This document shows positions 600-32,269 of a stretch of 64,000 nucleotides of DNA, piece after piece; within the stretch, counting starts at the first letter, position 1; each line of letters starts with the position of its first letter. The notes beneath the pieces were generated by a model that worked only from the letters and a program-made list of their open reading frames with translations, did not search any database and had not been told where the DNA came from. Source of the DNA: Tubulanus polymorphus (lineage: Eukaryota; Nemertea; Palaeonemertea; Tubulaniformes; Tubulanidae); NCBI RefSeq assembly GCF_964204645.1, contig NC_134030.1:372001-436000 (forward strand), in the 5' to 3' direction. A program made the translations under genes and the position numbers.

Positions 600-2768
600 A
601 TGGCTGTGTTTTTAATGAACACATGCAAGTTCAATAGTTGTGGGATGAATTTCTCGACTCTGGGTGACCTCATTCAGCATATTGAGGACACTCATATCGG
701 TAAATATCAACACTCTCAGTTTGACAGGTGTCACTGTCAAAACTTTTAGATTTTGACAGTTGTTCAAATGTTCTAATTTTGTTGTTTGTTATTTAAGAGT
801 CGGATCCACGAGTTATAGAGAAACAGGAATTACAGCAGCCTCCATCTCTTCCATTAAGTTATATACTCAGGTTATTTTGTGAGGCTGGTGGTACAAAACG
901 CGTTGAGGCCGCCGCTGCCGTCAGTAATGAGTTGAAGAAACGACCACGAGGTGGCGCTGTCTCACCGGCTCGTAGCGTTACCCCGACCGGGAGCGAGCTG
1001 GACGACGATGATGTCGTTGCCGCCAGCGACGACGAGGATAGCGATGATTCTTGGACGACGCAAGAAGAATTTTCATCGGAAGTTATTCTCAGGTGGGTGT
1101 TTTAACCCTTGGCTCCGGACAAATGGCGTCAGTAAAATGCGAGGGTTTTTACAACTCCTCGATTCCTTTAACTCCTCGAGCTGCAGTTGCTCTAAAGTTG
1201 GTTAGAGTTTCTCAGTTGATAGCTGACATTGTGACAATTAGAAGTTCATTGTTGCTATTGGCCGGTTATCTTTAACCAACTTTTGAGCAACTGCAGCCCT
1301 TTAATGGAAAATGTTTTAAATGTGCTTGAAACTCCTTCAATTTGAGCAAAATGTCAGAATTCCTTCAATTTTTTAGAAATATACAATCAGACATGTTTGT
1401 AGTTGTATAGTAAACCACCTAAATCAGTACAGTTGAAACAAGGATCTTTTTGTTAGCCAATTAGGAGGTTACAGAATTAGAAACAGAGTTTAGTATAGTG
1501 GATAGAAATGTGCTCACAAAATCACCCAATAACCTACTGAGATAAACACTACCGATTAGGAGGAGTTTACTGACGTAATTCTGGGATATGATTAATTATT
1601 AATTATAGTATGATTATTATTATTATTAATCATAATAAGATCATTATTTTTATGATTATAATGAATTATAGTATGATTATTATAATTATTAATCATAATA
1701 AGATTATTATCATTTTTATGATTATTATAATTATCATGAATTATAGTTTGATTATCATTATCAATTGTAGTATAGTATCCTGATGATGATTATGATTATT
1801 ATAATTAATTATAGTATGATTATTATTATTATTAATCATAATAAGATTATTATCATTTTTATGATTATTATAATTATCATGAATTATAGTTTGATTATCA
1901 TTATCAATTGTAGTATAGTATCCTGATGATGATTATTATGATTATAATTAATTATAGTATGATGGCGAATATAAAAGATGTGAGCGATAAACCGTTTGCG
2001 TGTCCAGTTCCCGGTTGTAAGAAACGATATAAAAATGTGAATGGAATCAAATATCACGCGAGACACGGTCATCGTAAAGACGCACGATTCGTGTAAATAT
2101 TCATAACCGTCATTCGTTCATTGTTTCGTCGTTTACCTCGTCGTTTCCATGGTGATTTATTTTACGTTTTCAGAGTGAAAAAAGCGTTCAAATGCAAATG
2201 CGGTAAAAGTTACCGGTCGGCTCAAGGTTTACGCAATCATCAACTGCTTTATCACCCGGTAACAACGCTTCTTAAAACAGCGACGACGCAACAATCAAAT
2301 ACAGCTACAACAACGCAAGCCGTTATCGCTACGGCAACCGTTTCTCAATTAGTAACGCAGCCGACGCTGGCGTTATCGATACCAGCCGTTTCCTGTATCA
2401 CTCCGCTTCCTATTCCTCCGCAACCGCAAACACTCGTCACAACAATGGCAGCACCGCTTAGCGTAACCATGACTACCGACAATCACCCGTCGAATACGAA
2501 GAATACGACGACGACGATTAATCCGGGATTAGGGATTAATCCTGGATTAGGGATTAATCCGGTGGGGGGAGGAGTAGGAAACGTGAATAATATACAAGCT
2601 CACGTTCAGGCAGCACACGCACTAGCTCACGCACAGGCTCAGGCTAAACAGGTCGTACAGGCCATTCAAAACGCTACAAATAACGCTTTAACTACTACAG
2701 CGCCACCTACAATAACAAACCTCGTACAGTCAGTATCATCAGCTATAGAACAAATAGTAGCCGAATAG
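600..2768 (+). CDS. JAZF1: JAZF1-like zinc-finger protein (4 exons)
   Basis: Exons by splice consensus and reading frame: 600-699, 798-1092, 1958-2092, 2174-2768 (about 374 aa). JAZF1 is a nuclear transcriptional cofactor associated with NuA4/TIP60 chromatin complexes in vertebrates. The protein starts MAVFLMNTCKFNSCGMNF, a first C2H2 finger (C9, C14, H27, H32). Next come a conserved DPRVIEKQELQQP stretch, an acidic SDDSWTT block, and two more fingers: 147-170 (FACPVPGCKKRYKNVNGIKY) and 184-204 (CKCGKSYRSAQGL). Finger spacing and the acidic block match vertebrate JAZF1 closely. The vertebrate protein is about 243 aa; here a Thr/Ala/Gln-rich tail of about 165 residues follows the last finger. 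The ATG at 600 was chosen because it opens the first finger and the frame upstream has no better Met. The acceptor of exon 3 and the stop codon both lie in tandem repeats (see findings). Confidence 0.93.
1573..1957. repeat. AT-rich imperfect repeats in JAZF1 intron 2
   Basis: This is a stretch of ATT/ATG microsatellite-like sequence with a roughly 145-bp segment present twice (about 1740-1880 and 1885-1957). The motif ATTATAG followed by TATGAT, which is the real exon 3 acceptor at 1957/1958, occurs earlier with its G at 1608, 1671 and 1814. Confidence 0.75.
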
Positions 2769-3062
2769 AGGGGGGTCTTACAGCGCCACCTACAATAACA
2801 AACCTAGTACAATCAGTATCATCAGCTATAGAACAAATAGTAGCCGAATAGAGGGGGGTATCGCAGCGCCCCCTACAATAATAAACCTAGTACAATCAGT
2901 ATCATCAGCTATAGAACAAATAGTGGCCGAATAGAGGGGGGTCTTACAGCGCCCCCTACAATAACAAACCTAGTACAATCAGTATCATCAGCTATAGAAC
3001 AAATTGTAGCCGAATAGAGTGGGGTCTCGCAGCGCCCCCTACAATAACAAACCTAGCACAAT
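2698..3062 (+). repeat. 83-bp tandem repeat spanning the JAZF1 stop codon
   Basis: A unit beginning CAGCGCC restarts at 2698, 2781, 2864, 2947 and 3030, exactly 83 bp each time. The first copy encodes the last residues of JAZF1 and its stop codon; the others lie in the 3' UTR. Copies differ by a few substitutions only, so the expansion looks recent. Confidence 0.9.
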
Positions 3063-3289
3063 AGACACTGAGAGGAATCTGAGTAGAAAGGGTCCCGGGC
3101 CTTCCTGTGGAGTGTGCTGCCCCCTGTGAGCTAAATGAATAAGGTACAGACCTGTTTGTATTGTATGAACAGTTACAATGAGCTGATCAAACAGGGAACA
3201 ATATTCACCAATAGGTGTCTCTGTCTAAGTGTTTATTACATGTTGTGTGTAAATTATTGATAGTCGCTGAAATATTACATTCATTGTTC

Positions 3290-4045
3290 TCACTTTCTGT
3301 TCTTACTGCTCCTTATTCAGCTGCTCCTACCCTTACTGCTCCTTATTCAGCTGCTCCTACCCTTACTGCACCTTATTCAGCTGCTCCTACCCTCACTGCA
3401 CCTCTACCCTTACTGCTCCTTATTCAGCTGCTCCTACCCTTACTGCTCCTTATTCAGCTGCTCCTACCCTCACTGCTCCTTATTCAGCTGCTCCTACCCT
3501 TACTGCTCCTTATTCAGCTGCTCCTACCCTCACTGCTCCTTATTCAGCTGCTCCTACCCTTACTGCTCCTTATTCAGCTGCTCCTACCCTCACTGCTCCT
3601 TATTCAGCTGCTCCTACCCTCACTGCTCCTTATTCAGCTGCTCCTACCCTCACTGCACCTCTACCCTCACTGCTCCTTATTCAGCTGCTCCTACCCTCAC
3701 TGCTCCTTATTCAGCTGCTCCTACCCTCACTGCACCTCTACCCTTACTGCACCTCTACCCTTACTGCACCTTATTCAGCTGCTCCTACCCTCACTGCACC
3801 TCTACCCTCACTGCACCTCTACCCTTACTGCACCTCTACCCTTACTGCACCTCTACCCTTACGCTCCTACCCTCACTGCTCCTTATTCAGCTGCTCCTAC
3901 CCTCACTGCTCCTTATTCAGCTGCTCCTACCCTTACTGCTCCTTATTCAGCTGCTCCTACCCTCACTGCACCTCTACCCTTACTGCTCCTTATTCAGCTG
4001 CTCCTACCCTTACTGCACCTCTTCTCCTGTTGCTTGCTGCACCTC
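3290..4045 (+). repeat. 30-bp/15-bp minisatellite
   Basis: Repeats of a 30-bp unit (CTTACTGCTCCTTATTCAGC plus TGCTCCTACC) are mixed with 15-bp half units (CTCACTGCACCTCTA). All unit lengths are multiples of three, so a long frame stays open by construction. I do not think it is a gene. Confidence 0.9.
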
Positions 4046-4374
4046 TACGCTTATTGCTCTACTTTTGTCTCAAGCTACACTTAGTTCCTGCTCCTCTCAA
4101 GCTAGACTTGCTCTTATTGAGCTGCTTCTGCTCCTGTGATTAGTGTTAATTTATTATCTATTGTGTCCTGTATTTATTGTATTGTAAATATTGCCTTATT
4201 TAATTGTTCAGTATTATTGTGTGTACACACCATGTATAAAACCAGAGTCAATGTGTCCCTTCCAGTCAACGCCACCTCTAGCCTGCTGCTGGTGGAACAC
4301 TCAACTCAATTTGTCCGGCATGCAATATCGTGAGTTAGTATTAGTTCATACATTTTAAGGGTTTGAAAAAGTAT

Positions 4375-4476
4375 TCCCACAAAACTGTTATCTCTGAGTT
4401 AAACAGTTATCTCTGAGTTAAACAGTTATCTCTGAGTTAAACATTTTTTTTAGTTAAACAGTGATCTCTGAGTTAA
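4375..4476 (+). repeat. Short TATCTCTGAGTTAAACAG tandem repeat
   Basis: Four to five degenerate copies of an 18-19 bp unit lie just left of the candidate MITE at 4473. Confidence 0.7.
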
Positions 4477-4706
4477 CCCTTTCAGTGTGTCTACACTGCA
4501 GTGCGGTGTATTGATGTAATTAGTAATTATCTCTCTTGAAAAATGGCAGCACCTGTCAAACATTGTGAAATACTAGTAACTAACGATACACCGCGCCGTG
4601 GTGTAGACGCATTATAGTGATATTCCTGTCATTCAACACACTGGACTGGAATTTTTCAGAATTTTCAAATAATCTTCAGCACTATAGGGTATTTATTGAA
4701 AGGGTA
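4473..4706. mobile_element. Candidate piggyBac-like MITE
   Basis: The left end reads TTAACCCTTTCAG and the right end TTGAAAGGGTA, giving short terminal inverted repeats (CCCTTTCA/TGAAAGGG) next to a TTAA on the left. An internal inverted repeat pairs GTCTACAC near 4489 with GTGTAGAC near 4605. TTAA plus CCCTTT-type ends is typical of piggyBac derivatives. The right TTAA is not intact, so the call is tentative. Confidence 0.35.
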
Positions 4707-5099
4707 CAGTTATCTCTGATTTGAGGAGCTGTCTCTGAGATAGACGTCAGATAAATGTCAGGAGTGACTCAGGAGTGTCTCGGCGTGCATTCTCTCTTGT
4801 TTGACATTTTTGTGTTGTGTACATAAAACAAACATCAATTGCATTTATTGAATATAAACCGTTTTCTATGTTGCTTAAAACCAAATTAAGATTGTATATG
4901 TAGTGACGTGAGTGTGTATTATCAACGAGAATGAGGAGGGGGTTGATTTTATTTTTATTCGTGCTGGAGGAGGGGGGAAGGGGGTAAGTGTGCCTGTATT
5001 TGTGATTGTTGATGTTGTACTCAGATGTTGCTTTATATTGCATTATTTAATACACATGCCTAAAACAGTTCATCTATTGATACAGTGTAGAGTATAGTT

Positions 5100-7060
<1,961 letters not shown>

Positions 7061-7235
7061 TTGGAAGATCTACGTCTTGCCCCACTGCAAGGGATCAAGA
7101 GATGGCCAAAGCCTTTTACAGGTCCTTATAGCTCACAACCCATTGTTATGAGTCTTGACAGCCAACGCCAGAGCTAGTTTCGAACCCGGGACCTCTTGGT
7201 TCCCAGTCCTGCCACTCAACCCCGCTGGACCCAAC
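7061..7235 (-). mobile_element. tRNA-derived SINE-like element
   Basis: Read on the minus strand, the segment begins GTCCAGCGGGGTTGAGTGGC and about 35 bases later has CCCGGGTTCGAAACTAG. That is an A-box-like and B-box-like pair at tRNA spacing, followed by unrelated sequence. This is the layout of a pol III SINE head. It does not fold as a real tRNA. I saw no poly(A) tail or target-site duplication. Confidence 0.45.
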
Positions 7236-8128
7236 AATCGGGAGATCAAATAATCTAGATCCAAGGTCACGGCTTGGCAGTTAACTTCTCATAGTACATG
7301 AGTGACATAAGTAAAATTAATTGGTCCCGTGGAATACGAGTAGTACAATTAATGATTTAATTCGTGGTCAGAAATCTTTGGAAATATAATTTAATTTGCT
7401 TTAAATTCCTTCTGTGGCATGTGGTTCTACCGCTTCACCGGATGCTAATACATTCGCTGAGCAAAATAGTTCTATTAAAAGTGGCTCGAACTTCGTTTAT
7501 AAAAGCAAATTCCCCTTAGATAAAGCTTTTGCACTGATAAAAATATTTATTCAAAACAAACAAGTGTTGAGTGATCGATGAAATTTGACTGAGAAAAATA
7601 TCAGTATTCCTCGCATGCCACAGTCGAATAACTAGCTGTGCTAGATCTTAACCGTTTGGTGCTGCCACTATGAATAACGATAGCGGGATTTCGGTAAACT
7701 AAAGTAAAAACAACAAACCAATGCCGGAACATAATATTTCTTTATTACGTACAATATAACGAACCAGCACCTAATTCTAATAAACAATGATACTTGAATT
7801 GTAAATGATATTCTAATATTTATTTAGGTAACCCCTGTATATCCCCTATAGAGCATCAGGACCACTCTGAATCAGTGTCAGTAATTACTGGGTTCGAACC
7901 TGGGACATCCCTGTACATCCTCTATTCAGTATCAGGACCACTCTGAATCATTTCAATAAGTCTATCAACTCTTATTCTCGAAATGGATATCATAGAATAA
8001 ATGGAATTGTTGCTAGTCCAAATGATTCTATTTTTTTTAATGAGGCTTTCGTTTATTGACTCGTTTTGAAAATCAATTTAACTAAATCGTGTTAACGGAT
8101 TCTGAATCCGTGGTTTATGGTGACAACT
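7236..8128. other. Gene-less stretch with partial 14.2-kb satellite
   Basis: No gene is seen. About 7835-7950 holds one and a half copies of the B-box-containing satellite that is tandem at 14172-14712 (shared GTACATCCTCTATTCAG and CAGTAATTACTGGGTTCGAA). Confidence 0.6.
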
Positions 8129-8715: not shown

Positions 8716-8796
8716 TATATTAGTTTTTACACCTCGCGTGTTACCACAGAGACCTGTATTCACGAAATTCAAACTTTGTGGTTCTACAGTTGTCTG

Positions 8797-8804: not shown

Positions 8805-9057
8805 CTCTAGTCTAAAACTGCTGCGAATTTTCATATGAAACTTAGATTATTTCAGATGGATTTTTAGTAAACTCTCAGAGCGAATCGTGTGAGTAGTAAT
8901 TTCAACAGAGCGCGTGAAATCTTCAGATGATTGTAGTGTGTTCTGTAGCAGGAGTTTGATGGAAGTATTTTGAAATCGTGGTTCCGCGGCTGTAACCCAC
9001 AATTTGAGGGAAGCAGTCACTACACTGATTGTCGCGTCAAACTGTTCTGTTCTTGTC

Positions 9058-10281
9058 ATGGACAATTTTACCGCTATCGTCACCACAACTCGAATATACC
9101 GCACCACTGTGAAGACACCGGGATATATCATAGCTTACAAGGGGTTTGCAAAGTTCAGTTTTTTATTTAGCAACACAATCAATTATCTCTTCTTACTTCC
9201 ACCTGGAAGTGTGTTTAACTTTCTGACAATAATTCTACTGATAAAGTGTCGCAGATATCAGTCAGTTCGTTACACGTTCCCTTATCTCATAACTATCGCG
9301 TTTTCAGATCAACTTGTCGTCTTGTTTGAGTTACAGAAATTCCCTTTCCATTTGAGAGAGTTCGTTGTTTATCGTCTAGGATTTTATAGAGGATGTGGCA
9401 GTTATTTTCTATTAGCTAAAAACAGGAAACTATGTCCATCACTTTATTATTTCAACTACTACTTCCGTCATCTGCCCAATAAACTGTTTCCTTTGTGTTT
9501 GCTACGGAGACTATTTTACGACCAGGCAATATCTGTATCAAACTACATAGTTATAGTGATCGCTATCGAGAGATTTGTTTCTATTCGTTTTCCTTTCTTT
9601 CACATGAAACATTTCACCGTCACTCAGCGTAAAATTGTAGTAGTTTTTATCATCTTCTGGGCGTATTTTATGAACTTGGATTCAGCAATCATGCGCAGTC
9701 GTGTTAAATTCGTTAAAATTCATAGATACAACGAAACATACGACTCTTTTGTGTGTCGTCAGTCAATCGCTATAAGCCAGCCCCAGACACGAGCAATAGC
9801 AGTTGCGAAAACAATTTTACAAGATATATTTCCATCTGTAATGATTGTAATATTATCAGTGTTAACTGCTTCATTACGCAATAAGAGATCTGAGATGAGA
9901 GCGAAGAGAACAGATCGTCATCAATCTGCAGCCAGTAAAACTCTTGTAGTTATAGTTATGCTGTATATTTTACTAGTTTTACCGCATGCTGTAGTTAAAA
10001 GCATCTACTATCTACTACTGGCTTTAAACCAAGTGATTAAAAAAAATGATAAAAACATCACTGACCCTCATTTACGATACTTACTTTATGAAATTTGGAT
10101 CGACTTACGATGGTTCCTGATACCATTTCGACAATTTGTGTACTGCGTGAATTTCTTTATCTACATCGGAACATTGAAAGTTTTCCGGAAAGAATTTATC
10201 AAACTATTTACTGATTGTTTTTGTTGTAAAATAAGGAACATAATCTGTCGTATAAACTTCAAAGAACCCGAATCTGTGTGA
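9058..10281 (+). CDS. Class A GPCR, tandem copy 1
   Basis: Single-exon frame of 407 aa starting MDNFTAIVTTTRIYRT, with an N-glycosylation site NFT. Seven hydrophobic segments are visible. TM1 contains GSVFNFLTIILLIK. TM2 carries the conserved Asp in the context AFSDQ. TM3 ends VIAIERFVSIRFPFF, so the DRY motif is replaced by ERF. TM7 has NFFIYIGTLKVF in place of NPxxY, followed by a Cys-rich tail (CFCCK) that could be palmitoylated. These traits fit a rhodopsin-family peptide-type receptor at the plasma membrane; the ligand cannot be named. The frame is open upstream but only through non-ATG codons, so the ATG at 9058 was chosen; copy 2 has the same Met. Its twin lies 2.7 kb downstream on the same strand. 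Confidence 0.85.
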   Translation: MDNFTAIVTTTRIYRTTVKTPGYIIAYKGFAKFSFLFSNTINYLFLLPPGSVFNFLTIILLIKCRRYQSVRYTFPYLITIAFSDQLVVLFELQKFPFHLREFVVYRLGFYRGCGSYFLLAKNRKLCPSLYYFNYYFRHLPNKLFPLCLLRRLFYDQAISVSNYIVIVIAIERFVSIRFPFFHMKHFTVTQRKIVVVFIIFWAYFMNLDSAIMRSRVKFVKIHRYNETYDSFVCRQSIAISQPQTRAIAVAKTILQDIFPSVMIVILSVLTASLRNKRSEMRAKRTDRHQSAASKTLVVIVMLYILLVLPHAVVKSIYYLLLALNQVIKKNDKNITDPHLRYLLYEIWIDLRWFLIPFRQFVYCVNFFIYIGTLKVFRKEFIKLFTDCFCCKIRNIICRINFKEPESV

Positions 10282-11505: not shown

Positions 11506-11758
11506 CTCGAGTCTAAAACTGCTGCGAATTTTCATATGAAACTTAGATTATTTCAGATGGATTTTTAGTAAACTCTCAGAGCGAATCGTGTGAGTAGTAA
11601 TTTCAACAGAGCGCGTAAAATGTTCAAATGATTATAGTGTGTTCTGTAGCAGGAGTTTGATGGAAGTATTTTGAAATCGTGGTACCACGGCTGTAACCCA
11701 CAATGTGAGGGACGCAGTCACTACACAGATTGTCGCGTCAAACTGTTCTGTTCTTGTC

Positions 11759-12970
11759 ATGGACAATTTTACCGCTATCGTCACTACAACTCGAATATAC
11801 CGCACCACTGTGAAGACACCGGGATATATCTTAGCTTTCATAAGGTTTTCAGCCTTCAGTATTGTGTTTAGCCGAGACTTCAATTATCTCTTCTTACTTC
11901 CACCGGGAAGTGTGTTTAACTTTCTGACAATAATTTTACTGATTAAGTGTCGCAGATATCAGTCAGTTCGTTACACGTTCCCTTATCTGATAACTATCGC
12001 GTTTTCAGATCAATTTTTCGTCTTGTTTGAGTTACTGGCTTTCCCTTGGTATTTGAAAGACTTTGTAGTTTCTCGTCTAGGATTTTATAGAGCATGTCGC
12101 AGTAGATATCTGACATTCACTAAACACAGTAAACTATGTCCATCACTTTACTATTTCAATTACTATTTCAATTATCTGCCCAATAAACTGTTTCCTATGT
12201 GTTTGCTACGGAACCTATTTTACGACCAGGCAATATCTGTATCAAACTACACAGTTATAGTGATCGCTATCGAGAGATTTGTTTCTATTCGTTTTCCTTT
12301 CTTTCACATGAAACATTTCACCGTCACTCGCCGTAAAATTGCAGTAGTTTTTATCATCTTCTGGGCGTATTTTATGAACTTGGATTCAGCAATCATGCGC
12401 AGTCGTGTTGCTTTAGTTAAATTTCTTAGACTCAACGAAACATACGTCTATTTTTCGTGTTATCCGACAATCGCTTCAAGCCTGGCCCAGAGAGAAGCAA
12501 TGACACTTGCAAAAAGAATTTTACGAGAGAAAGTTCCTTCTATAATGATTGTAATATTATCAGTGTTAACTGCTTCATTTCGCAATAAGAGATCTGAGAT
12601 AAGAGCGAATCGTCATCAATCTTCAGCCAGTAAAACTCTTCTAGTTATAGTTATGGTGTATATTTTACTAGTTTTACCGCATGCTGTAGTTAAAACCATT
12701 CATGACGTAATAAACACCTTACAGCGGTCGTCTAAAGGAAGTAAAGGAAGATATATCTTTGCCCATTTAATAAACCCTTATTTACGATACCTTCTTAGTG
12801 GTATATGGATGCACTTAACATGGTTCCTGCAAACATTTCGACACTTTGTGTTCTGCGTGAATTTCTTTATCTACATTGGAACATTGAAAGTTTTCCGGAA
12901 AGAATTTATTAAACTATTTACTGATTGTTTTTGTTGTAAAATAAAATCTGTAATAAATAAAAAAATCTGA
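11759..12970 (+). CDS. Class A GPCR, tandem copy 2
   Basis: Single-exon frame of 403 aa, a duplicate of the receptor at 9058. It has the same start MDNFTAIVTTTRIYRT, the same AIERFVSIRFPFF motif after TM3, and the same TM7 and tail (NFFIYIGTLKVFRKEF). About 300 bp of 5' flank, including the TATA-like box, is also duplicated. Transmembrane and intracellular parts are almost identical, whereas the loops around the TM2/TM3 region, extracellular loop 2 (after VALVKFLRLNETY) and extracellular loop 3 (a stretch with SSKGSKGRY) differ strongly from copy 1. Role: cell-surface receptor of unknown ligand. Both copies look intact. Confidence 0.85.
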   Translation: MDNFTAIVTTTRIYRTTVKTPGYILAFIRFSAFSIVFSRDFNYLFLLPPGSVFNFLTIILLIKCRRYQSVRYTFPYLITIAFSDQFFVLFELLAFPWYLKDFVVSRLGFYRACRSRYLTFTKHSKLCPSLYYFNYYFNYLPNKLFPMCLLRNLFYDQAISVSNYTVIVIAIERFVSIRFPFFHMKHFTVTRRKIAVVFIIFWAYFMNLDSAIMRSRVALVKFLRLNETYVYFSCYPTIASSLAQREAMTLAKRILREKVPSIMIVILSVLTASFRNKRSEIRANRHQSSASKTLLVIVMVYILLVLPHAVVKTIHDVINTLQRSSKGSKGRYIFAHLINPYLRYLLSGIWMHLTWFLQTFRHFVFCVNFFIYIGTLKVFRKEFIKLFTDCFCCKIKSVINKKI

Positions 12971-14140: not shown

Positions 14141-14171
14141 TTTCTTAATGAATAATAACCAAGGACTCTTA

Positions 14172-14712
14172 TGTCAGTAATTACTGGGTTCGAACCCGGG
14201 ACACCCCTGTACATCCTCTATTCAGCATCAGTACCGCACTCTGAACCAGTATCAGTAATTACTGGGTTCGAACCCGGGACACCCCTGTACATCCTCTATT
14301 CAAAATAAGGACCACTCTGAATGAGTATCAGTAATTAATGGGATCGAACCCGGGCCATCCCTGTACATCCTCTATTCAGCATCAGGACCACTCTGAATCA
14401 GTGTCAGTAATTACTGGGTTCAAACCCGGGACACCCCTGTACATCCTCTATTCAGCATCAGGGCCACTCTGAATCAGTATCAGTAATTACTGTGTTCGAA
14501 CCCGGGACACCCCTGTACATCCTCTATTCAACATCAGTACCACTCTGAATCAGTGTCAGTAATTACTGTGTTCGAACCCGGGACACCCCTGTACATCCTC
14601 TATTCAACATCAGTACCACTCTGAATCAGTGTCAGTAATTACTGTGTTCGAACCCGGGACACCCCTGTACATCCTCTATTCAGCATCAGTACCACTCTGA
14701 ATCAGTGTCAGT
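14172..14712. repeat. ~77-bp satellite with tRNA-like B box
   Basis: About seven tandem copies of a unit holding CAGTAATTACTGGGTTCGAA, then CCCGGGACACCCCTGTACAT and CCTCTATTCAGCATCAG. GGGTTCGAACCCGGGA contains a pol III B-box-like core that is also palindromic. Further copies lie at about 7835-7950. No A box at tRNA spacing was found, so a functional tRNA is unlikely. Confidence 0.85.
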
Positions 14713-15296: not shown

Positions 15297-16379
15297 CTAA
15301 TCCTCGACTGATGACCGAGCCTGTAATAGTTTCCAACCAGCTCGCCTGAAATTGGAATTTGTTATGCTGTAAAGGAGAAAGTTAGCGCACGAATCTACCA
15401 CAGTCAGTCCGATACCCGTTTTCCCTACAACCAATCCGTATTTATATTTGTAGTTCACTTTTATGTAACCCCTACCAATGAATCGGTGAACAAGGAACAC
15501 CGACTCACAAACGATGTAAACAGTCACAACAGTTATAACCATTCTCAACACTCTTTTCTCTATCGAACTCGATTCCGTTTGTTTTTCAGTTTTTTGCGCC
15601 GATTGCAGCATCTTACCACGTGACTTACGTTTGATAAGGAGATTCACGATTAAGGCCGTGTTTGTTATACAAAGGAATACCATCGGAATCAAAACCCCGA
15701 ATATGAAATCCGGCCCGTTAACGGTCGTCTCGATCCATTCCAGAAGCACTGAGAGTAATTCCTGGAAATGCCAGAGTGGAATATTTTTGTGCATACTTAT
15801 TGTCGGTCCCGATTCACCGCATGGTTTTGCAAAAAAGAAAGGCGATCTGGGGACGAGTTGAGGAAAGTACATGGCTACTGAACCGAGGTGTATAATCACT
15901 AACCACGAGTTGACGACTTTGCTCGTCCAAAAAACACGTGATTTCAAAGGAAACAATACAATAACACACCTCTCAAAACTCAACAAGAAAACACACCAGT
16001 TGCGAGTGAGCAAGAATATGTAATAACATCCGTGAGAAACTTTAACAAATGCTCTCCCGAAATGCCAGTCATCCACACGAAAAACAATATCTCCCAGAAG
16101 TCGGTAAACATGAATAGTCCTCAGCGGGTACATGACAAATACAGACAACGAGTACAGAACATCATTGACCGCTACCGCTTTTACTAAGTAATAAGAACGA
16201 CTTTTCATCGTGTTCAAAATTACGAAGGTAAAGCTGTTGAATATTATACTGAAAATCGTTGCCGGTCCGAAGAAATAGATGTACACAAATACGCTGAACT
16301 TAAAATCCCATCTGATCTCTCTCTGTTTCCACTTTTCGCAATCAGTCAACTCAACGACTGCACCGGTCGTGTTTAACAT
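15297..16379 (-). CDS. Class A GPCR (360 aa)
   Basis: Single-exon minus-strand frame starting MLNTTGAVVELTD, with an N-glycosylation site NTT at residue 3. TM1 contains the conserved Asn in IIFNSFTFVIL, TM2 the Asp in VAVNDVLYSLS, and TM3 ends LLSFERCVIVLFPL with ERC in place of DRY. ECL2 has a Cys (AKPCGE) able to pair with the TM3-top Cys (SHGCYY). IC3 is basic (NLLIKRKSRGKM) and TM7 reads DSCANFLLYSITN in place of NPxxY. It resembles neuropeptide-type receptors; no ligand can be assigned. It is not a close copy of the GPCRs on either side. The start is the first Met, followed by a plausible extracellular N-terminus. Confidence 0.82.
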   Translation of the reverse strand: MLNTTGAVVELTDCEKWKQREIRWDFKFSVFVYIYFFGPATIFSIIFNSFTFVILNTMKSRSYYLVKAVAVNDVLYSLSVFVMYPLRTIHVYRLLGDIVFRVDDWHFGRAFVKVSHGCYYIFLLTRNWCVFLLSFERCVIVLFPLKSRVFWTSKVVNSWLVIIHLGSVAMYFPQLVPRSPFFFAKPCGESGPTISMHKNIPLWHFQELLSVLLEWIETTVNGPDFIFGVLIPMVFLCITNTALIVNLLIKRKSRGKMLQSAQKTEKQTESSSIEKRVLRMVITVVTVYIVCESVFLVHRFIGRGYIKVNYKYKYGLVVGKTGIGLTVVDSCANFLLYSITNSNFRRAGWKLLQARSSVED

Positions 16380-16861
16380 TGTGTGTTCAGCGATCCTCTA
16401 CGAGTTGAAGAGGGAGAGAGAGAATGGCTGTTATATCAACGTTTTGACGCCATCCACAGTACGTACCAATTACCATATACAACGAGTCGCGAACTGCGAA
16501 CAGCCTATAGCAAAAATATATTCAACGAATATCCCTGGCGTTTTGTAGCAACCGATGTGTTATAGATACCTCGAGATCATCAGTAAAATCTGCCAGTGTT
16601 TACCACACAATCTTTAAAATTACATTTCAAAATTCTAGCGTTGTTTACTCGACACAAAATGAAAGACACAATTAGTATGATTTTTTTTCAGGGGAATTTT
16701 AAGCCCCTCCTCCGCCTCTGAAAGTATTGCGGATATTGTGTATTATCCTTATCGTTCAAATACGAGGAGTGACTGGTGCGCATGTGCGAGGAGGTCCTTT
16801 CATAGCCCGGCCCGTGTGGTCTACACCGGGACTATTCATGATTAATGAACAATTTGGTATC

Positions 16862-20800: not shown

Positions 20801-23800
20801 TCAGTACTTCAACCGACAGGGTAAACACTCAGTATCTGTCTGTCTGGCTGTCAATGAAAGGCCTCGAGAATAAGCTTGGGCCTCGAGAATAATCTTGGGC
20901 CTCGATAAAAGGCTTGGGCCTCGAGATAGGCTCGGACCTCGGGAATATGCTTGGGCCTCGAGAATAAGCTTGGGCCTCAGGAATATGCTTGGGCCTCGGG
21001 AATAGGTCTGAGCTCCGTGAACGGGCTTGGACCTCGAGAATAGGCTTGGGCCTCGGGAGATGCTTGGGCTTCGAGCTTCGTGAACGGACAGGCTTCGAGG
21101 CCGAACCTCGGCTTTTTGATTAGGCCTCAGCTTCCATATTGGGCTTGGGTTTGCTTTGCGATTGGGCCTAAATCTTTCTACATTTGACACTGTACAATAT
21201 TTCTACAATTTTGATAGGATAAATAGATGAATAAAAAATAATATGTTATCTATATATTGTAGACGATATTTCTACATTTAATACCAATTTGATAGATATA
21301 TAGTATAATGATGATATGACGTGTATATATTGTAGAGGAGGCGTTCCACGTGATTGTGTTTATTTGTATCCTCATCTATTTCCCTCCACATCCGCCATTA
21401 CCGCCGACAATATCAGCATCTACAGATCGCGTCAGTTTCATACGAGGCCTCGGTCAGGCTTTCTGGTAAGTTATTTTCTTTTCACAAAAAAAGTATATTT
21501 CAGCACAAAATTAGTGTTCGCAACCGTCGTACCATTGACCATGGCCTGCATCCGAGCAGTTAACCAGTCACCAATAACCCTAACCCTAGACTCGAACTTG
21601 CCACCTCCGGCATGCAAGCCGAGCATACTAACCCCTAGACCATAGACCTGTAGCGTCTGACAGAGTTTGTAAATTTCTCTGGTCAGTGTGGTGTCTGGTG
21701 ACCAGTCAGGTGTGATGACTGGTGACCAGTCAGGTGTGGTAACTGGTGACCAGTCAGGTGTGATGACTGGTGACCAGTCAGGTGTGGTAACTGGTGACCA
21801 GTCAGGTGTGATGACTGGTGACCAGTCAGGTGTGGTAACTGGTGACCAGTCAGGTGTGGTAACTGGTCACCAGTCAGGTGTGGTAACTGGTGACCAGTCA
21901 GGTGTGGTGACTGGTGACCAGTCAGGTGTGGTGACTGGTGACCAGTCAGGTGTGGTGACTGGTGACCAGTCAGGTGTGGTAACTGGTCGTGTGGCCATTC
22001 ACTACATATCACTCTTTTCTTGAAGAATATTAATGACTCTTTGCTCCCCAACTTCCAAACTAACTAATTCAATTGTTTACCAGATGAAAATCTCGGACTC
22101 ATTTTGTTTGTATTTTTAGTCACGCACGATTGTGGGTAATGGCAATACCATACGGATTAGGGTTAGGTGTTTATAACTGTTGGAACGCGATATTAGATGT
22201 GAATTTGAGCCCGTTAGGAATACAGCAGTCTGAAGCAGGCTGGCTCGGGTTTTACGCTGTAATGGCCGGCTGTACCGGAGCCCTTATCGTGTCCTGGTAA
22301 GCTAAATTATCATTATTATTAGTGAATTATTACTATTTAGATGAAAATGATTATCTGAAAATTATTACGGTAAACAAAATTCGGTCTATCATTTGGATAA
22401 GTCGTCACATTACTGAAGTCATCTCTATTTTTGAGTCTCAATTTGTATTTCTAATTCAATTTACTAAGTGTAAGTCATCATTTGTATATAAGTCATCAAC
22501 AAATCAATGAATTTGGTCCCAACTGCAAACGCATTTATCACAAAATGATTATATCTTTGTTTGTGTTTTGTGCTGTAGGATTTCCGATCATTTCCTGGGT
22601 CACATGAAGATATTTTGTATCGTGTTGTTTATTGGTGCTGGTGGCTCCGCCTTGTGGAGCATGTTACTTATTGGTCAATATATACCGTTCAATTCTGGTA
22701 AGATAATAATCACCAGTCTCAATGAGACGATTAATTAGAAAGCAAATATCATTTGAATTCGGAATTTTCTGTTAAGGCTAAACAAAAATGATACCTTGTC
22801 CGCAACGGCCGGGTTATTTTTGTAAAATATGATTAAATTTGTAATCAATTTATTTCTGATGCCGGGTCTGTTATATGATAAAATAAATCACGATTAAAAC
22901 AAAAAGTAATGCACAGGGTAGATAGGCGGCTGGACCGGGTCAACTTTTAAACTCAGCAGAAATGAGAATCATGGTATCGATATTTTTTGCCTAAGATTTA
23001 ATTATATTTTCTCTGACTCTCCTTTCGCAGGTGAACTATATACATCTATAATAGTGGGCGGTTTATTGATATACACGTGTATAGCACTGTTTTTTGAAAT
23101 GGCTTGTGAATCGGCGTATCCGATAGCGGAGTCTGTGATCAGCGGCATGTTTGCTTTACTAAACAATATCTGTGGAGTGACGTTCCTTCTACTCTTCTAT
23201 ATTCCTAATATCGGTAAGTATACGACTAATGAACTCGTGTTCAATATTTATTATGTTCTAGATACGGAATGGATGAACTGGTGTTTTATAATGAACTCGT
23301 GTTCAATATTTATTATGTTCTAGGTACGGAATGGATGAACTGGTGCTTTATAATGAACTCGTGTTCAATATTTATTATGTTCTAGGTACGGAATGGATGA
23401 ACTGGTGCTTTATAATGAACTCGTGTTCAATATTTATTATGTTCTAGGTACGGAATGGATGAACTGGTGTTTTATAATGAACTCGTGTTCAATATTTATT
23501 ATGTTCTAGGTACGGAATGGATGAACTGGTGCTTTATAATGAACTCGTGTTCAATATTTATTATGTTCTAGGTACGGAATGGATGAACTGGTGTTTTATA
23601 ATGAACTCGTGTTCAATATTTATCATGTTCTAGGTGCGGAATGGATGAACTGGTGTTTTATAATGAACTCGTGTTCAATATTTATTATGTTCTAGGTGCG
23701 GAATGGATGAACTGATGTTTTATAATGAACTCGTGTTCAATATTTATTATGTTCTAGGTACGGAATGGATGAACTGGTGTTTAACGGGTGCTCTGTTTAT

Positions 23801-24925: not shown

Positions 24926-24997
24926 TGCGTTCGCCGGGAATCGAACCCGGATCCATTGCTTGGAAGGCAACGATGCTAACCTTTACACCACGAACGC
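24926..24997 (-). tRNA. tRNA-Gly (anticodon TCC)
   Basis: A full cloverleaf is visible on the minus strand. The acceptor stem is GCGTTCG/CGAACGC, the A box TGGTGTAAAGGTTAGCA, the anticodon loop CTTCCAA (anticodon TCC), the B box GGTTCGATTCC, and the discriminator A. A run of T residues follows at its 3' side (plus-strand poly-A at about 24909-24917). It is very close to metazoan tRNA-Gly(TCC). Confidence 0.96.
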
Positions 24998-26398
24998 CGC
25001 TTGCAAACGGTGCATTTCGACTAGTAACCCATTTCTAACACGTGGTTAGGAGATTGAAATAAAATCTCCGACCGTCTGAATGTGGCGTATTGTGTTCAAC
25101 AGATGGTTACATATCTTATACGGGTTTATGTTTATTTCTATCATACGGGTTATGTTCCAGATGTGACCTAAATTCGATGATGTCAAAGGGTTACCCATGA
25201 AGGCAGCCATTATCCAATGTTTTCTAGAAGGGTGTGTTTATATATCCGCATCAATTCAATGACGTCATAGGGGGATTAACGGAAGCAAACATCTTTTCTT
25301 GAAGTGTATCACATGCCTAACCACATCGAGATCATGATGTCATAGGGGAATTTCTTTTCCATATCAATTCCGACGTCATAAGCACATTCTTAGTCACCAC
25401 TTTTTTCATATGACGTCATAAGGAGATTCAAGGGCGCAGACATATTTACGGGAAAGAATGATTTCTGAGATGGCTGTTTTGGGTTAGATTGATGTTTCCT
25501 GTTCTCTATGAGCAGTCGATGTTTGGCTCTTGTAATCGTGAATCATATACGTTACTGGAGGGTCTGGTCACAGGCGTGGATTGAGGGGGTATTGAGGGTA
25601 TTGTAAAGCAACTGCGGGCCCAAAAATAAATTCCTTGAGTATAATACCTGTCATTTAGCAAGGTATAATTGTTGGTTCATGAAATACCAATTTAATTTAA
25701 TAATTATGACTGTAAATTGTTTATGTTGTTGTTGCAACACTTTTTATTGGATGATTAAATCATGTAAAGTTTTTCGGTAAACCTACAGTTTGTTTGTTTG
25801 TATTAAGCATTATCTATACCTCTATTTATGATGATGCGCAGTTTTTACTGGTTTGTTTAAGTCTGTAGTTATCTGTATGTTCCATAAAAATAAATAAATC
25901 TTGTTGTTTGTTGTTTGTTTTGAATCAGTGCTAGTAATGATACTTCTCCGCAGCGGCCCGACTACTTTTGTAAACTACGATAAAATTTGTAATCGGTTCA
26001 TTTTGAATAGGCTGCTGGACCTGGTTATGGTTAGCCTGATCAGATTATCCAGTCGATCTGAATTACTGCTCTTACCCAAGTCTGTGTCCCAACTCGCTTC
26101 GGTCTGTGGCGTCGGGCCGGAGGATCGCCGCGACTGACAAAAGGGTGCCACAAGGATTCAACTATTGTAAACTTCAGATAAAATATGCAAACATCTCAAT
26201 TCACAGAATATATTTCACATATGGTTGATAAAGAAAGCATGTCCCCCTTCGGCCCCATTCGGCCTTCAGAGTGATTCATTAAAGGCCCGCAGCTCCGGCG
26301 CACCAACAGAGAAACCAGTCTAATTGAATGGGAAAGGCTGCCAGTCTGCAAAGGCTTAGTACCAAGTACTCGAGAAGAAAACCATTCTCAAGTCGGTG
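24998..26398. other. Gene-less stretch
   Basis: No gene is supported. Several TGACGTCA-like sites occur (about 25260-25420, e.g. ATGACGTCATA), which may be regulatory or chance. Confidence 0.4.
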
Positions 26399-26501
26399 AT
26401 GTCAAACGCGTTAGAGGTATTTACTGCCCGTTTAGACAACGTTATTCACTTGCCGCAGTTAGTTTCTAGTCACGGGATTGAAAGATTGATTGATTTCAGA
26501 G
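26399..26501 (+). CDS. Possible first coding exon, family not recognised
   Basis: The sequence begins ATG and reads MSNALEVFTARLDNVIHLPQ followed by LVSSHGIERLIDFR. It ends at a strong donor (G then GTAAAT) at phase 1, is GC-richer than its flanks and looks coding. I could not find a convincing continuation. The acceptor at about 27256 (CATTTCAG) gives only a few more residues and then a stop. It is out of phase with PTPMT1, so it is not that gene's first exon. It may be a short gene, a gene fragment or chance. Confidence 0.3.
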
Positions 26502-27294
26502 GTAAATATACGATTTAAATCCTGCTGAGAATCAGGTTTAATTACTCAGTTCAGAGGTGGTATGTGTTCACTGTTTGTCTGTGTGTTTAAGACTGACCCC
26601 CATTTCCGGGATCGATTGAGTAGGAAGCAATTCTTTTGACATTTATTTTGATGGAATATGTTGAATTGAATTGATACTTCGCTTAAAATAAATTATTAAT
26701 CAATTTAATGACCTAAAAGAAATCAAATCGTCGTTTTGGATTATGATGGACGTTTTTTAAGTTAGGAAACGAATTTTGTGGTTTGTGTAAGGTATTAACA
26801 TTGATTGAAACTAGCGGGGGAGGGGTCGGGGGTAAGTTGCTTAGTGTAGGCCTATCCAGAAGCTTGCTACAAACACACAGAGGATTAACAGATTATCAGT
26901 TTACAAAAACTCTGATACTTGGAGCTAGCGCAGGGTCAGTCCATTTACTGACGGCACATAGCACAAGATTTTGTCCCGGTGGTTATTGGACACTCAGTCC
27001 ATGAAATTCAGTCAATGAAATTTCTAATTAAATGTAAGTAATAAATGAACTGAACTTTAATCCCCTGTCTGGCTGTTAATCCCCCTTTGGCTCATAATCC
27101 TGTTACAATTTGCACTGCAGTTTATTTCTTTAATTGCGACATTAATGACATGTTTGTTTAGTGACCCCTGACCCCGACTGTTGAGTTGGCACAGTGCACT
27201 GTGCAGACACCGTTGAACTTGGCTTTATGAACAATTTGGTTGTTTTTCATTTCAGATATAACAAGGTATTCCGCTAGTGTGGGTAGTGACTGAC

Positions 27295-27711
27295 ACTGAG
27301 TGGTCAGCAGCAGTAGTCAGTAGTGGTCAGCAGTGGTCTGTAGCGGTCAGCAGTAGTCATTAGCAGTCAGCATTGGTCAGTAGTGGTCAGCAGCGTTCAG
27401 TAGCAGTCAGCAGCGGTTTGTAGTGGTCAGTAGTGGTCAGCAGTAGTCAGTAGTGGTCAGCAGTAGTCAGTAGTGGTCAGCAGTAGTCAGTAGTGGTCAG
27501 CAGTAGTCAGTAGTGGTCAGCAGTAGTCAGTAGTGGTCAGCAGTAGTCTGTAGCGGTCAGCAGTAGTCATTAGCAGTCAGCAGTGGTCAGTAGCAGTCAG
27601 CAGCGGTTTGTAGTGGTCAGCAGCGGTCAGCAGTAGTCAGCAGTAGTCAGTAGTGGTCAGCAGTAGTCAGTAGTGGTCAGTAGCGGTCAGCAGTAGTCAG
27701 TAGCGGTCAGT
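27295..27711 (+). repeat. 20-bp minisatellite abutting the PTPMT1 start
   Basis: About twenty copies of TAGTGGTCAGCAGTAGTCAG, with many single-base variants. The array stops right at the PTPMT1 start codon. Confidence 0.92.
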
Positions 27712-29571
27712 ATGGTTTTAATGCAGATTGTTCCTCGTATAGCTTTCTACCCGTCGTTGCTGTATAACATCGTTCTAGAGAAATTATCATTCCACAATTG
27801 GTACAACAGAATCGATGAACACATTATACTGGGAGCTCTTCCCTTTAGACATATGACTGAACAGGTATGTATCTTCTAATCCATCCTGTCTCTCTCTCCA
27901 GGTCCCCTCAGGTCTTCTCATTTTCGATAGAATCCTGGAGCTGCAGTTTCTAGAAAATTGGTTGAAATCAACCGGTGGATAGGTTGACATAGTGACTGTT
28001 AAAATTTCATTGTTACTATGGTATTTATCCACCGGTAATCCACTAGCTGCATCCGTTATAATCCATCCTGCCCCCTCCTCCCCAGGTCTCCCCTTCTTCT
28101 CACTTTCAACTCTGTTATTTTGCAGCTGTCTACAGAAGAGAATGTTAAAGGTGTTATAACGATGAATGAAGAATTTGAAACCAGATTTCTGGTCAACACT
28201 CAACAGGTGAATAATCTAAATCCTCTCACAGATTACACCAGTGTAATCTGTGAGGTTACATCGGTGTAATCTGTGAGATTCAGATAACAATGATGTAATC
28301 AGTGAGATTACACCAGTGTATTACACCGAAGTAATCTCACAGATTACAACAATGTGATCTCGCAGATTGCATTGTTGTTATCTCACAGATGAAACCTATG
28401 TAATCAGTGGTGTTAAAAGCAGTTTTTGATCGCTGCGTCACTTGTCGACTTTTGACAGCTTCTAATGTTGCTGCGGTGAAATTACTTCAATTTTGTCAAA
28501 ATCATAGTAAAAAAAAATTCATTCAGTAAATTAATTGGCGCAGCTCTTGCCGCTGCAGTCGCCTCGGTTCCAACGCCACTGGTTATTGAACAGATCATAG
28601 CAATGTAATCTCATAGAGCTGATTGAATCAATCAATAAATGATTGTTTGATTGACAGGAGTGGGAGGAGAATGGAATTAATTGATAAATGATTGTTTGAT
28701 TGACAGGAGTGGGAGGAGAATGGAATTAATTGATAAATGATTGTTTGATTGACAGAAGTGGGAGGAGAATGGAATTCATTGATAAATGATTGTTTGATTG
28801 ACAGGAGTGGGAGGAGAATGGAATTAATTGATAAATGATTGTTTGATTGACAGGAGTAGGAGAATTGAATTAATTGATAAATGATTGTTTGATTGACAGG
28901 AGTAGGAGGAGAATTGAATTAATTGATAAATAATTGTTTGATTGACAGGAGTGGGAGGAGAATGGAATTAAACAGCTCAGATTGGATACCGAAGATTTTA
29001 TCAATTCCCCGACCCTGACGAACATCATCGAAGGGATGAAATTTATCGAACAAATTAAACGTGACAATGGGACAGTGTATGTACATTGTAAAGCAGGTCG
29101 AACGCGTAGCGCTACGATAGTAGCGTGTTACATCATACAGGTACGCCATCTACTGGTCTAAAAAACAACTACCTACGTACCGCCCTCTTCAACACACTAT
29201 AACTAGCTACTCGACTAGAGCCATCTAGTGATTATTCCTGAAACTACGCTACCCGAAACAGTGAATGCATCAGTAGTGCCCTCTAGTATTCAAAGTGTGA
29301 ACTACCCCCTCCTCAGTAGTGCCCTCTAGTATTCATAGTGTGAACTACCCCTCCTCAGTAGTGCCCTCTAGTATTCATAGTGTGAACTACCCTCTCCTCA
29401 GTAGTGCCCTCTATTGTCTATTTTCAGAAGGTCGGCTGCAGTCCGACGGAAGCCGTCGATTTCATACGCGGAAAACGATCGCATATTTTACTCCGTCAAA
29501 AACAAATGGATTCCATCGAAGAATTTTACAATACGATTAAAAATAAACCCGATGTAAACGATACTACGTGA
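27712..29571 (+). CDS. PTPMT1: PTPMT1, mitochondrial PGP phosphatase (4 exons)
   Basis: Exons: 27712-27864, 28126-28206, 28949-29140, 29428-29571, all phase 0, giving 189 aa (vertebrate about 201). PTPMT1 dephosphorylates phosphatidylglycerophosphate on the inner mitochondrial membrane, a step in cardiolipin synthesis. Recognisable segments are [48 protein letters not shown], and the dual-specificity phosphatase P-loop [12 protein letters not shown] with catalytic Cys125 and Arg131. The C-terminus reads [19 protein letters not shown]. In-frame ATGs exist at 27712 and 27721; both leave a short hydrophobic N-terminus that could act in import. Exon 3 starts inside a seven-copy repeat. An AATAAA lies near 29719. 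Confidence 0.94.
28207..28425. repeat. Inverted/direct AATCTGTGAGATTACA repeats
   Basis: PTPMT1 intron 2 contains several direct and inverted copies of CACAGATTACACC/GGTGTAATCTGTG, able to form hairpins. Confidence 0.7.
28623..28977 (+). repeat. 49-bp tandem array carrying the PTPMT1 exon 3 acceptor
   Basis: Seven copies of TTGATAAATGATTGTTTGAT plus TGACAG and the first bases of exon 3 (GAGTGGGAGGAGAATGGAAT). Acceptor AGs end at 28657, 28706, 28755, 28804, 28853, 28899 and 28948; one step is 46 bp, the rest 49. Only the last copy continues into the full exon. Confidence 0.95.
29265..29412 (+). repeat. ~42-bp minisatellite in PTPMT1 intron 3
   Basis: Three to four copies of CTCAGTAGTGCCCTCTAGTA followed by TTCATAGTGTGAACTACCC. 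It ends shortly before, but does not include, the exon 4 acceptor. Confidence 0.85.
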
Positions 29572-30242
29572 CGTCGATTAACTTTACTCCAAGACTATAT
29601 CATCATCATCGTAATCAGGACTAAAAACTACTATAGGATTAAAGGAGTCATCTTGTTTTAAATTGATCTAACACGTTTTTGTTGATTTTATCTCGTTATT
29701 TTCCGATGTCTGTTGAAATAAATTTAACTGTTAGAAAGACAGATTGTTGATTTTAATCAGTGCTGCCCTCTGGTTGGGCTTCTAGTCACTAAGTTTAGTA
29801 GCGGTTCGTCTGTTCTAGTCGCCCTCTCACTACAGAAAGTGCTTCCACTCGCAGAGTTTCTGGTTCCATACACAAAAGATGAAGAACAATGTCTGAAAAT
29901 CTTCTAACAAACTTAATATTTATTTTCACAAAGCTGTTTACTACTAAACGATACACATGTATTACAATATTACGATACACATGTATTACAATATTACGAT
30001 ACACATGTATTACAATATTACAGGTCAGATGATGATGACCAGTTTTTGATAATAGCACATTTTAATCAGTTCCAGCTTTAAATATTTTCACCCCCCACGC
30101 GATGGAGTCAATTAGTCTATTATAACCTTAAACTTTACGGTAATAAATTTAACTAAAAATCCAAGGATTTTTTGCGATGATGTAAAACTTGAAAATGTGC
30201 AAGGATTTTAATGATATATTTATATAATTACAACATGGAAAG
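29572..30242. other. Intergenic tail-to-tail region PTPMT1/SDHD
   Basis: Contains the 3' UTRs of both genes, a 23-bp triplet repeat (ACGATACACATGTATTACAA) at about 29949-30022, and no other gene. Confidence 0.5.
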
Positions 30243-30375
30243 CTGAAGGGTTCCCAGAGTCATAGGCTCACTTTATAAGGGGGTTCCCCGAGTCATAGGC
30301 TCTCTTTATAAGGGGGTTCCCCGAGTCATAGGCTCTCTTTATAAAGGGGTTCCCCGAGTCATAGGCTCTCTAGGG
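30243..30375. repeat. 33-bp tandem repeat
   Basis: Four copies of a unit with GGTTCCCCGAGTCATAGGCT and CTCTTTATAAG; CATAGGC recurs at 30261, 30294, 30327 and 30360. Confidence 0.9.
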
Positions 30376-30654
30376 ACCTTCAATAAAGTACGTATAATTC
30401 TCAACTCACTGCCCTGGTTATTGATCCCCGGAGTGGTGTGCAAGTATACTTTATCAATGACCCCTACTGTACCAATGACCTGGAACCAGTCCGTTATATC
30501 TCTATCGCGTGCAACTGCTGACAACCAGTCTAATAAGCGTTGATAATAAATAAATAATTCTCTTTTTTTAAGTTCATATGTAAAAATTCTGGTCTACAGT
30601 GACTCAGACGTAACTATAGCAACAGTTACTACGGCGATGACGATGGATATTGTT

Positions 30655-32269
30655 TTACTGTTCGATGGCTGGGGTTTTGTTTTTCTTATCGAGAGCCCAG
30701 AAGTATTTGACGGCACCGATGCAGCCGATATCGTTATAGTTAAACACGCAGATACCGGCAAAACCGAGCGCCGCAAATATCAATATCATCCATTCACACA
30801 CCGCAGGGGGCAGCACTTTACGATGGATGTAGTCAACGGCAACAGTGTCTAAACCCCTACAATATAGAATGAAATAAATATCAGTATTGTAACACTAATC
30901 CAGCTGTTAGTATAGTGAGGGGAGGGAGAGGGGAGGAATGGGGAGGGAGGGGGGAGGGGAGGGAGGGGGGAGGGTAGTGAGAGGAGAGGGGTGGGTAGTG
31001 AGAGGAGAGGGGAGGGTAGTGAGGGGGGAGGGGAGGGAGGGAGAGGGGATGAGAGAGAGGAGAGGGAGGGAGAGGGTGTATACATACCAGTAACCATGTA
31101 ACACTAATCCAGCTGCTAGTATAGGGAGGGGAGGAATGGGGAGGGGAGGAATGGGGAGGGGAGGGAGAGGGTGTATACATACCAGTAAGCATGTAACACT
31201 AATCCAGCTGCTAGTATATAATCCATTGCTGGATGCACATATATGAATGATGCTGGTATTAAAGGTATCAAAGCTGTAGCTAAATATCTCTCGACTTTCC
31301 AGTGAACAGATGGTCTCAGGTGTTGTTTAGCGGGATCTCCCCAAACCACTGAAAATACACATCAAACATGTCTATTCATCAGTGGATTCTAGATTTCAGA
31401 ACGACCCACACTCCGTCTATATTCACACTGTCGTAACTTAAGCCCGAAAGTTCGTACAGAAGAACTAACTACATGAATATGCAATCGGCCCCTGGGACCA
31501 GTTGCACAGTCGTGACTTAAGTCCAAAAGTGGTCTTAAATCTAAAAACTGGTCTTAAGTTGTTAGATTGGCTATAGAACTAAGTTGGTCTGAGACTTGTC
31601 TTAAGTCTAAGCCATGACTGTGTAATCGGCCCTTGTTGCCAGGGATTCACAAACAGAAATCAGTTGCCGAGGTCGGAATCGAGGTCGACCTGTTTCACTT
31701 ACTTGGATCAGAAAATCGACTTTTCTCTTTTTTACTTAAAAACACATTTGTCGTATGAATTCTGCGCTGTTGTGATGATTCAGCTGTACCCGCTACTACT
31801 GTTACTAATGGTAACGCCGGTCTACTTGTTACGGATGAGAATTTTGGCCTAAAAAGACCCGCAGTGCCAGTTGTCAGGCCGAACCCTGAAAATAGTGAAA
31901 TATCAACCATATTAATACGTGTCAAGATCGACATCAGATCTGGAGATTGAGAACGTGCAGGCCAGGGATAGAAATTGAGTCTGAGGATAAGGTGCATTCG
32001 GTAGAGAATGCAAGGTTCCAACACTACTGTCAGTGTCACTAGCACCAGTAGAGTAGGCACAGGCAGGAGTAAACGCCAAGGACGCAAGGTCAAATAAAAA
32101 CCTATTTGTTACGCAACAACTTCGCATTGAGGAGTGAGAATAGAAATCGAAATTATAAATATATAGAATATAGAATCAAACAGTGAAATATAGAGTTAAT
32201 TGGTGTTTACGGTAACTAGTTACGGTGATATTTACCTCTAGAACCGAGACGAAATACAAGACCGTTCAT
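30655..32269 (-). CDS. SDHD: SDHD, succinate dehydrogenase anchor subunit (4 exons)
   Basis: Minus-strand exons: 32236-32269, 31703-31885, 31183-31348, 30655-30856; the four-exon layout and phases (1, 1, 2) give 194 aa. This is the small membrane anchor of mitochondrial complex II, binding heme b and ubiquinone. The N-terminus (MNGLVFRLGSRGFGL, then RRIHTTN) looks like a transit peptide. The mature part has SVHWKVERYLATALIPLIPA (TM1), a second helix with AMDYILAAGLVLHAYW, including the expected heme-ligand His, then VDYIHRK with the quinone-site Tyr. The third helix is FAALGFAGICVFNYNDIG. The tail WALDKKNKTPAIEQ is longer than in vertebrates. The 3' end of exon 3, with its donor, is duplicated in intron 3. 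Confidence 0.92.
30893..31216 (-). repeat. G-rich array with duplicated SDHD exon 3 end
   Basis: GGGAGGGGAGG-type simple sequence alternates with copies of the exon 3 end. TAACACTAATCCAGCTG is found at 30895, about 31100 and about 31195. The middle copy (31084-31123) keeps the donor context (minus strand TTACTG then GTATGT); the left copy has lost it. Confidence 0.88.
31485..31634. mobile_element. Palindromic MITE in SDHD intron 2
   Basis: The left end GACCAGTTGCACAGTCGTGA and right end CATGACTGTGTAATCGGCCC are imperfect inverted repeats, with internal repeats of GACTTAAG/CTTAAGTC. Confidence 0.6.

Follow-up and report, generated by a model that had tools for sequence, protein, structure and literature searches.

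Mirage-type minisatellites across splice sites, and the avoidance of exon edges by intron arrays, in a probably lophotrochozoan genome

Introduction

Minisatellites that run across exon-intron boundaries are known from amphioxus, where they have been called mirages. Tandem repeats of this kind are reported to lie across boundaries in Adh3 and in the globin genes BflGb6 and BflGb9 and to splice regularly, and they were proposed as a route to new introns (PMC3087553); PGBD5 and troponin C have been added as mirage genes (PMC3902484). We found arrays of this kind in a window of 64,000 nucleotides, the whole stretch of DNA analysed (bases 372001-436000 of the 23.0-Mb contig C6, in a genome of 268 Mb and 77 contigs). 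The gene content shows the host to be an animal. We put at roughly 85% the probability that these arrays are mirage-type boundary-spanning minisatellites, arising from random duplication in introns without preference for splice sites, with most of the arrays that cross an exon edge being removed.

Two related phenomena have been described: the gain of introns in Drosophila when segments containing AG/GT are duplicated in tandem (PMC2891723), and internal tandem repeats at exon-intron boundaries in human duplicated genes (PMC2812944). In our search of the literature on boundary-spanning repeats, outside which most subscription journals fell, mirages by that name were found in amphioxus only. 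Intron gain by duplication of AG/GT-containing segments has reportedly also been studied in potato. In the human gene IFI6 (6-16), a minisatellite gives multiple splice donors, and splicing reportedly makes use of these alternatives.

Splice sites within tandem arrays

Arrays were called with Tandem Repeats Finder, and every copy was then read out individually. They cover 17.7% of the window, which contains five multi-exon genes: a JAZF1-like gene, an SLC49/FLVCR-like transporter gene, PTPMT1, SDHD and a diacylglycerol kinase gene (Table 1). The preliminary description of this DNA had reported a splice site inside an array in four of the five (three acceptors and one donor), and the copies bear this out, the JAZF1-like gene being a marginal case. 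Units that straddle a real splice site, taking in sequence from the intron as well as the exon, were present in the SLC49-like gene, PTPMT1 and SDHD, and also in a myosin gene elsewhere in the genome (locus L043, with three donors).

The array in the SLC49-like gene takes up all of the last intron (23214-23757) except its first 13 bases. Each unit consists of 37 nt of intron end, with a TTCTAG| acceptor, and 25 nt of exon start. The nine acceptors follow one another at 62-bp spacing (last intron bases 23261 to 23757), and only the final one adjoins the remainder of the exon. The splice signal is kept in all nine copies, which are on average 96.8% identical; seven of the acceptors, including the outer one, share the top score, and the other two score slightly lower. 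Use of the first acceptor would give a 48-nt intron. Translation of each splice choice gave a premature stop, located in the last exon, for all eight decoy acceptors. Eight of the nine copies read TTCTAG|GT (six GTACGG and two GTGCGG), and the possible donor in these copies scores 3.2, compared to a median of 3.1 for the predicted myosin donors. The spliced protein is FLVCR-like (best PDB match, E = 2.9e-25), and no single exon of the gene gave a significant Pfam or PDB match.

In PTPMT1, seven TTGATTGACAG| acceptors lie between 28657 and 28948, at intervals of 46-49 bp, and the final one alone has the remainder of the exon after it. All seven copies keep the splice signal, and six of them (outer copy included) share the top score. 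Mean identity among the copies is 89.3% in an ungapped comparison, one copy having a 3-bp deletion. Each of the six decoy acceptors would lead to a premature stop. The protein match to PTPMT1 (1.2e-15) starts at the first residue of the exon past the last acceptor. When the whole genome was searched with the SLC49-like and PTPMT1 arrays, using a search that ignores very common words, each matched at its own place only, and neither locus gave a match to a second haplotype copy. These two arrays were therefore most likely born where they stand, and we rejected a dispersed origin of their units.

The captured site in SDHD is a donor. The intron, on the minus strand, runs from 31182 to 30857; the array contains two copies of a 95-bp unit, with 36 nt of exon end and the donor, plus purine-rich filler. 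There are two ACTG|GTATGT donors, with first intron bases at 31182, adjoining the exon, and at 31087; use of the inner one, the only decoy, would give a premature stop. A third copy of the exon end, from 30914 near the acceptor, lacks a donor, so that the splice signal is kept in two of three copies. Adjoining positions of the CybS profile (25-75 and 78-133) are matched by the two exons.

The JAZF1-like acceptor (last intron base 1957) lies inside an AT-rich array along with similar TATAG sites. Six of its seven decoys lead to a premature stop; the exception, the site at 1918, would add 13 codons in frame. This exon edge was not singled out by the test for duplicated exon edges described below. 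The gene matches a zinc finger in Pfam, and we take JAZF1 to be the appropriate name. In the kinase gene (DAGK_acc, 1.5e-6) we recovered the minisatellite that had been placed about 12 bp from an exon. The position of the donor (first intron base 59006) was read by eye, and an alternative row of the Tandem Repeats Finder output ends this array at 58997, 8 bp from the donor. Arrays also reach the stop codon of the JAZF1-like gene and the first possible ATG of PTPMT1; gene edges such as these, which need only one working copy, would be places where arrays can persist.

Table 1. Tandem arrays at or near gene and exon edges in the window
Feature	Position	Strand	Method	Remark
AT-rich array, JAZF1-like acceptor	1587..1963	+	Tandem Repeats Finder and copy read-out	ends ~6 nt inside the exon; marginal case
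83-bp x 4.4 array, end of JAZF1-like gene	2696..3062	+		first copy carries C-terminal codons and stop; later copies behind the stop
62-bp x 9 array, SLC49-like acceptor	23227..23782	+	Tandem Repeats Finder and copy read-out	
20-bp array, start of PTPMT1	27308..27716	+		ends at first possible ATG
49-bp x 7 array, PTPMT1 exon-3 acceptor	28622..28971	+	Tandem Repeats Finder and copy read-out	
43-bp array, PTPMT1 intron 3	29270..29413	+		stops 14 bp short of exon 4; splice site not captured
SDHD intron and exon-end array	30888..31218	-	Tandem Repeats Finder and copy read-out	
Diacylglycerol-kinase intron array	58296..58993	-		ends 12 bp from the donor; splice site not captured

Arrays are depleted beside splice sites

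The preliminary description had further held that overlap of arrays with exon edges looks higher than expected. We assembled an independent sample of introns, picked regardless of arrays, from myosin-head exons and the exons of four chaperonin genes. Exons were placed by profile matches (for part of the myosin exons these were weak, with E values as high as 1), and intron ends were set with GT-AG pairs that kept the reading frame. The 129 myosin exon pairs yielded 96 accepted introns, with 25 pairs skipped because of a profile gap or overlap and 8 without a convincing GT-AG solution; of 20 chaperonin pairs, 16 were accepted, 3 skipped and 1 bad. Kinase exons found elsewhere in the genome were left out, and the window introns do not include the partial diacylglycerol-kinase intron beside the array at 58296-58993. 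The independent sample comprised 112 introns (224 junctions), and the window 20 introns (40 junctions). A junction was counted as captured only if both flanking bases lie inside one array. In the coverage and rotation counts the SLC49-like exon-7 donor was placed 4 bases off and three SDHD or kinase edges 1 base off, which affects no count, there being no array near enough to matter.

Over both samples, 5 of 264 junctions were captured, compared to 17.0 ± 4.1 expected when the array masks were rotated (P = 0.001), and the supposed excess is thus a deficit. In the independent sample a single junction of 224 was captured (rotation null, 9.8 ± 2.6, P = 0.0005; expectation from intron coverage, 16.7). 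The window contributed the other 4, out of 40; rotation gave 7.2 ± 3.2 (P = 0.22 for a count this low), and the coverage-based expectation is 13.9. Among 38 arrays touching an intron, 5 cross its end, compared to 15.2 under uniform placement; for the window only, the count is 4 of 13 arrays, compared to 6.7 (P = 0.057). The window shows four captured junctions because 35% of its intron bases lie in arrays (7.5% in the independent sample), and at this density of arrays, finding four across exon edges does not exceed expectation.

Array coverage also falls toward the splice sites. In the window and myosin introns together, intronic coverage was 2.6% at 0-10 bp from the junction, 4.5% at 10-30 bp, 7.3% at 30-60 bp, 10.8% at 60-120 bp and 10.3% at 120-240 bp, and exonic coverage in the 10 bases beside the junction was 2.0%. 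In the window alone, coverage rose from 10% at 0-10 bp inside the intron to 35% at 120-240 bp. Exon edges are avoided by arrays.

These results bear on the foremost rival to random duplication, in which the polypyrimidine tract, AG or AGGT promotes slippage and makes exon edges hotspots of array birth. Such a bias would fit the four affected genes of the five in the window. It would also fit a further array that abuts a myosin donor exactly (L050:1316-1507), a 95-bp duplication that starts at the first intron base and includes no exon sequence. However, coverage is lowest beside junctions, window included, and even with the L050 array counted only 2 of the 224 independent junctions are captured. 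We rejected the bias toward polypyrimidine/AG sequence put forward in the preliminary description, since the distance profile gives it no support, and we regard exon-edge hotspots in general as improbable. A birth bias at splice sites could be masked by strong selection.

Duplicated exon edges and the age of the arrays

We looked for copies of exon edges within their own introns, excluding 20 of the 264 edges with a trimmed intron of <60 bases. A copy scoring at least 24 was found in 4 of 244 tests, and in 0 of 244 on the reverse strand. None of the 244 edges had a copy scoring between 22 and 31, and there were thus no decayed examples. On these counts we rejected the idea of widespread fossil mirages. 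Old mirages are either quickly lost or homogenised, or all mirages are recent. Clear mirages were found in three of the window's 20 introns and in one of the remaining 112 (Fisher P = 0.011), a difference in line with array density and one to be read with the window having been chosen, in the preliminary description, for its boundary arrays. At a separate myosin locus (L046, ~bases 3983-5810, minus strand), a muscle myosin exon is present in four tandem copies, as expected for mutually exclusive exons.

Other repeats and open reading frames

Several repeat units in the window recur. A 69-bp unit forms a 22-copy array (62011-63516) and, 4 kb away, a reversed two-copy array (57579-57716), and is thus dispersed, unlike the boundary arrays. 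A 109-bp unit occurs in three arrays (43269-43854, 48149-48384 and 48822-49237, the last reversed). The 76-bp unit of an array at 14172-14712 contains GGTTCGAACCC, which resembles a transfer RNA promoter box, and much of the unit recurs at ~7850-7950; it may have originated from a short interspersed element. Two open frames (44236-44602 and 47734-48061) resemble inverted copies of one segment.

On the minus strand, three near-identical 346-codon frames in tandem (33546-34586, 36411-37451 and 39245-40285) look by eye like rhodopsin-type intronless receptors, and the open frames neighbouring them are likewise repeated. More long single frames, also receptor-like by eye, lie at 8974-10281, 11675-12970 and 15297-16397, the first two being alike and in the same direction. 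Elsewhere in the genome, identical kinase scores at C10:8114542-8115012 and C36:93057-93527 suggest that part of C10 is either duplicated in C36 or present there as a second haplotype.

Discussion

The boundary arrays have the same structure as amphioxus mirages. We propose that a local tandem duplication with breakpoints on either side of a splice site would copy the intron end and the exon edge as one unit, which unequal exchange or slippage would then expand. The array would be tolerated if splicing still used the copy on the intact exon (the last one in the case of acceptors, the first in the case of donors). The remaining copies would turn into intron sequence, and the intron would lengthen. 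A general tendency to duplication would put arrays in introns at random; those crossing an exon edge would mostly be removed, and thus be under-represented, but some would persist, since splicing can still turn to the copy attached to the undamaged exon. It had been suggested before that selection may retain a single working copy and that introns may grow by this route, and both ideas fit the copies seen.

Several points weigh against this reading. Within the window alone, the shortfall does not reach significance under either rotation (P = 0.22) or uniform placement (P = 0.057). The independent sample consists of two conserved families, which may be more constrained than average genes, and its introns were predicted from sequence. 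Because both nulls permit arrays to land on exons, the counts establish the lack of an excess and a net depletion, and not their cause. The choice of splice site was likewise deduced: with a premature stop resulting from 21 of 22 decoys overall, the functional site is most likely the copy adjoining the intact exon, and homology at PTPMT1 and SDHD fits use of the outer copy. Finally, the data are suggestive of a link between the array richness of the window and its nearness (0.4 Mb) to the end of the contig, which is a contig end and not an established chromosome end. In 33 loci, with the window excluded and L009-L038 except L030 excluded for overlap with L039-L056, array coverage was 11.4% for the 8 loci lying in the outer 3 Mb of a contig and 2.0% for the 25 more interior loci (Mann-Whitney P = 0.0013), the 3-Mb limit having been set after seeing the data. 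The correlation of coverage with distance gave Spearman P = 0.10 by locus and 0.057 by gene cluster, and there are exceptions to the trend (L004, 0.19 Mb from the end, 0%; L006, 11.7 Mb, 15.7%).

The arrays might instead be functional, with repeated acceptors or donors yielding alternative exons or regulating splicing. Most inner copies are as strong as the outer one (top score in 7/9 SLC49-like and 6/7 PTPMT1 copies), and the in-frame JAZF1-like decoy could extend the protein. We nevertheless think function very improbable: nearly all decoys lead to a stop, no older, decayed examples were found, and with mean similarities of 97% (SLC49-like) and 89% (PTPMT1), the copies need no selection to have retained their sites. 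It is scarcely credible that the copy numbers are assembly artefacts, given that copies differ by substitutions and small indels and that two- to three-copy cases occur on other contigs (L043, L050).

Among the mirage-type arrays, that of the SLC49-like gene could conceivably, if improbably, act as a self-erasing splice ladder. Because eight of its nine units read TTCTAG|GT, a single unit could be excised as a GT..AG intron, and 62-nt units might be removed stepwise as introns whichever acceptor is used first. If this is true, the messenger RNA would show no trace of array length, and AG|GT mirages would offer introns a protected way to grow in an animal outside the lancelets.

The units of amphioxus mirages, 10-160 bp long, extend over an acceptor or donor into both flanks, and AG or GT survives in several copies, as is the case here; their copy number varies between haplotypes, reportedly without disturbing splicing (PMC3087553, PMC3902484). 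The intron gain described above creates a new intron position; here existing introns were lengthened, and no new position was shown. The alternative donors of IFI6 are reportedly used, whereas the inner SDHD donor would give a stop. The host also differs from amphioxus. The best PDB match of a muscle myosin exon is 3i5f, followed by the 1dfk/1b7t group (one exon, no tree); these are squid and scallop structures, and the host is therefore probably lophotrochozoan.

Our findings extend the range of mirage minisatellites to a host that is probably no lancelet. They replace the idea of a splice-site hotspot with a measurable rule: array coverage declines toward splice sites, and only about a third as many arrays extend over an exon edge as uniform placement would predict. 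Because no decayed mirages were found among the edges tested, mirages seem to be young and short-lived, and not a major source of introns.

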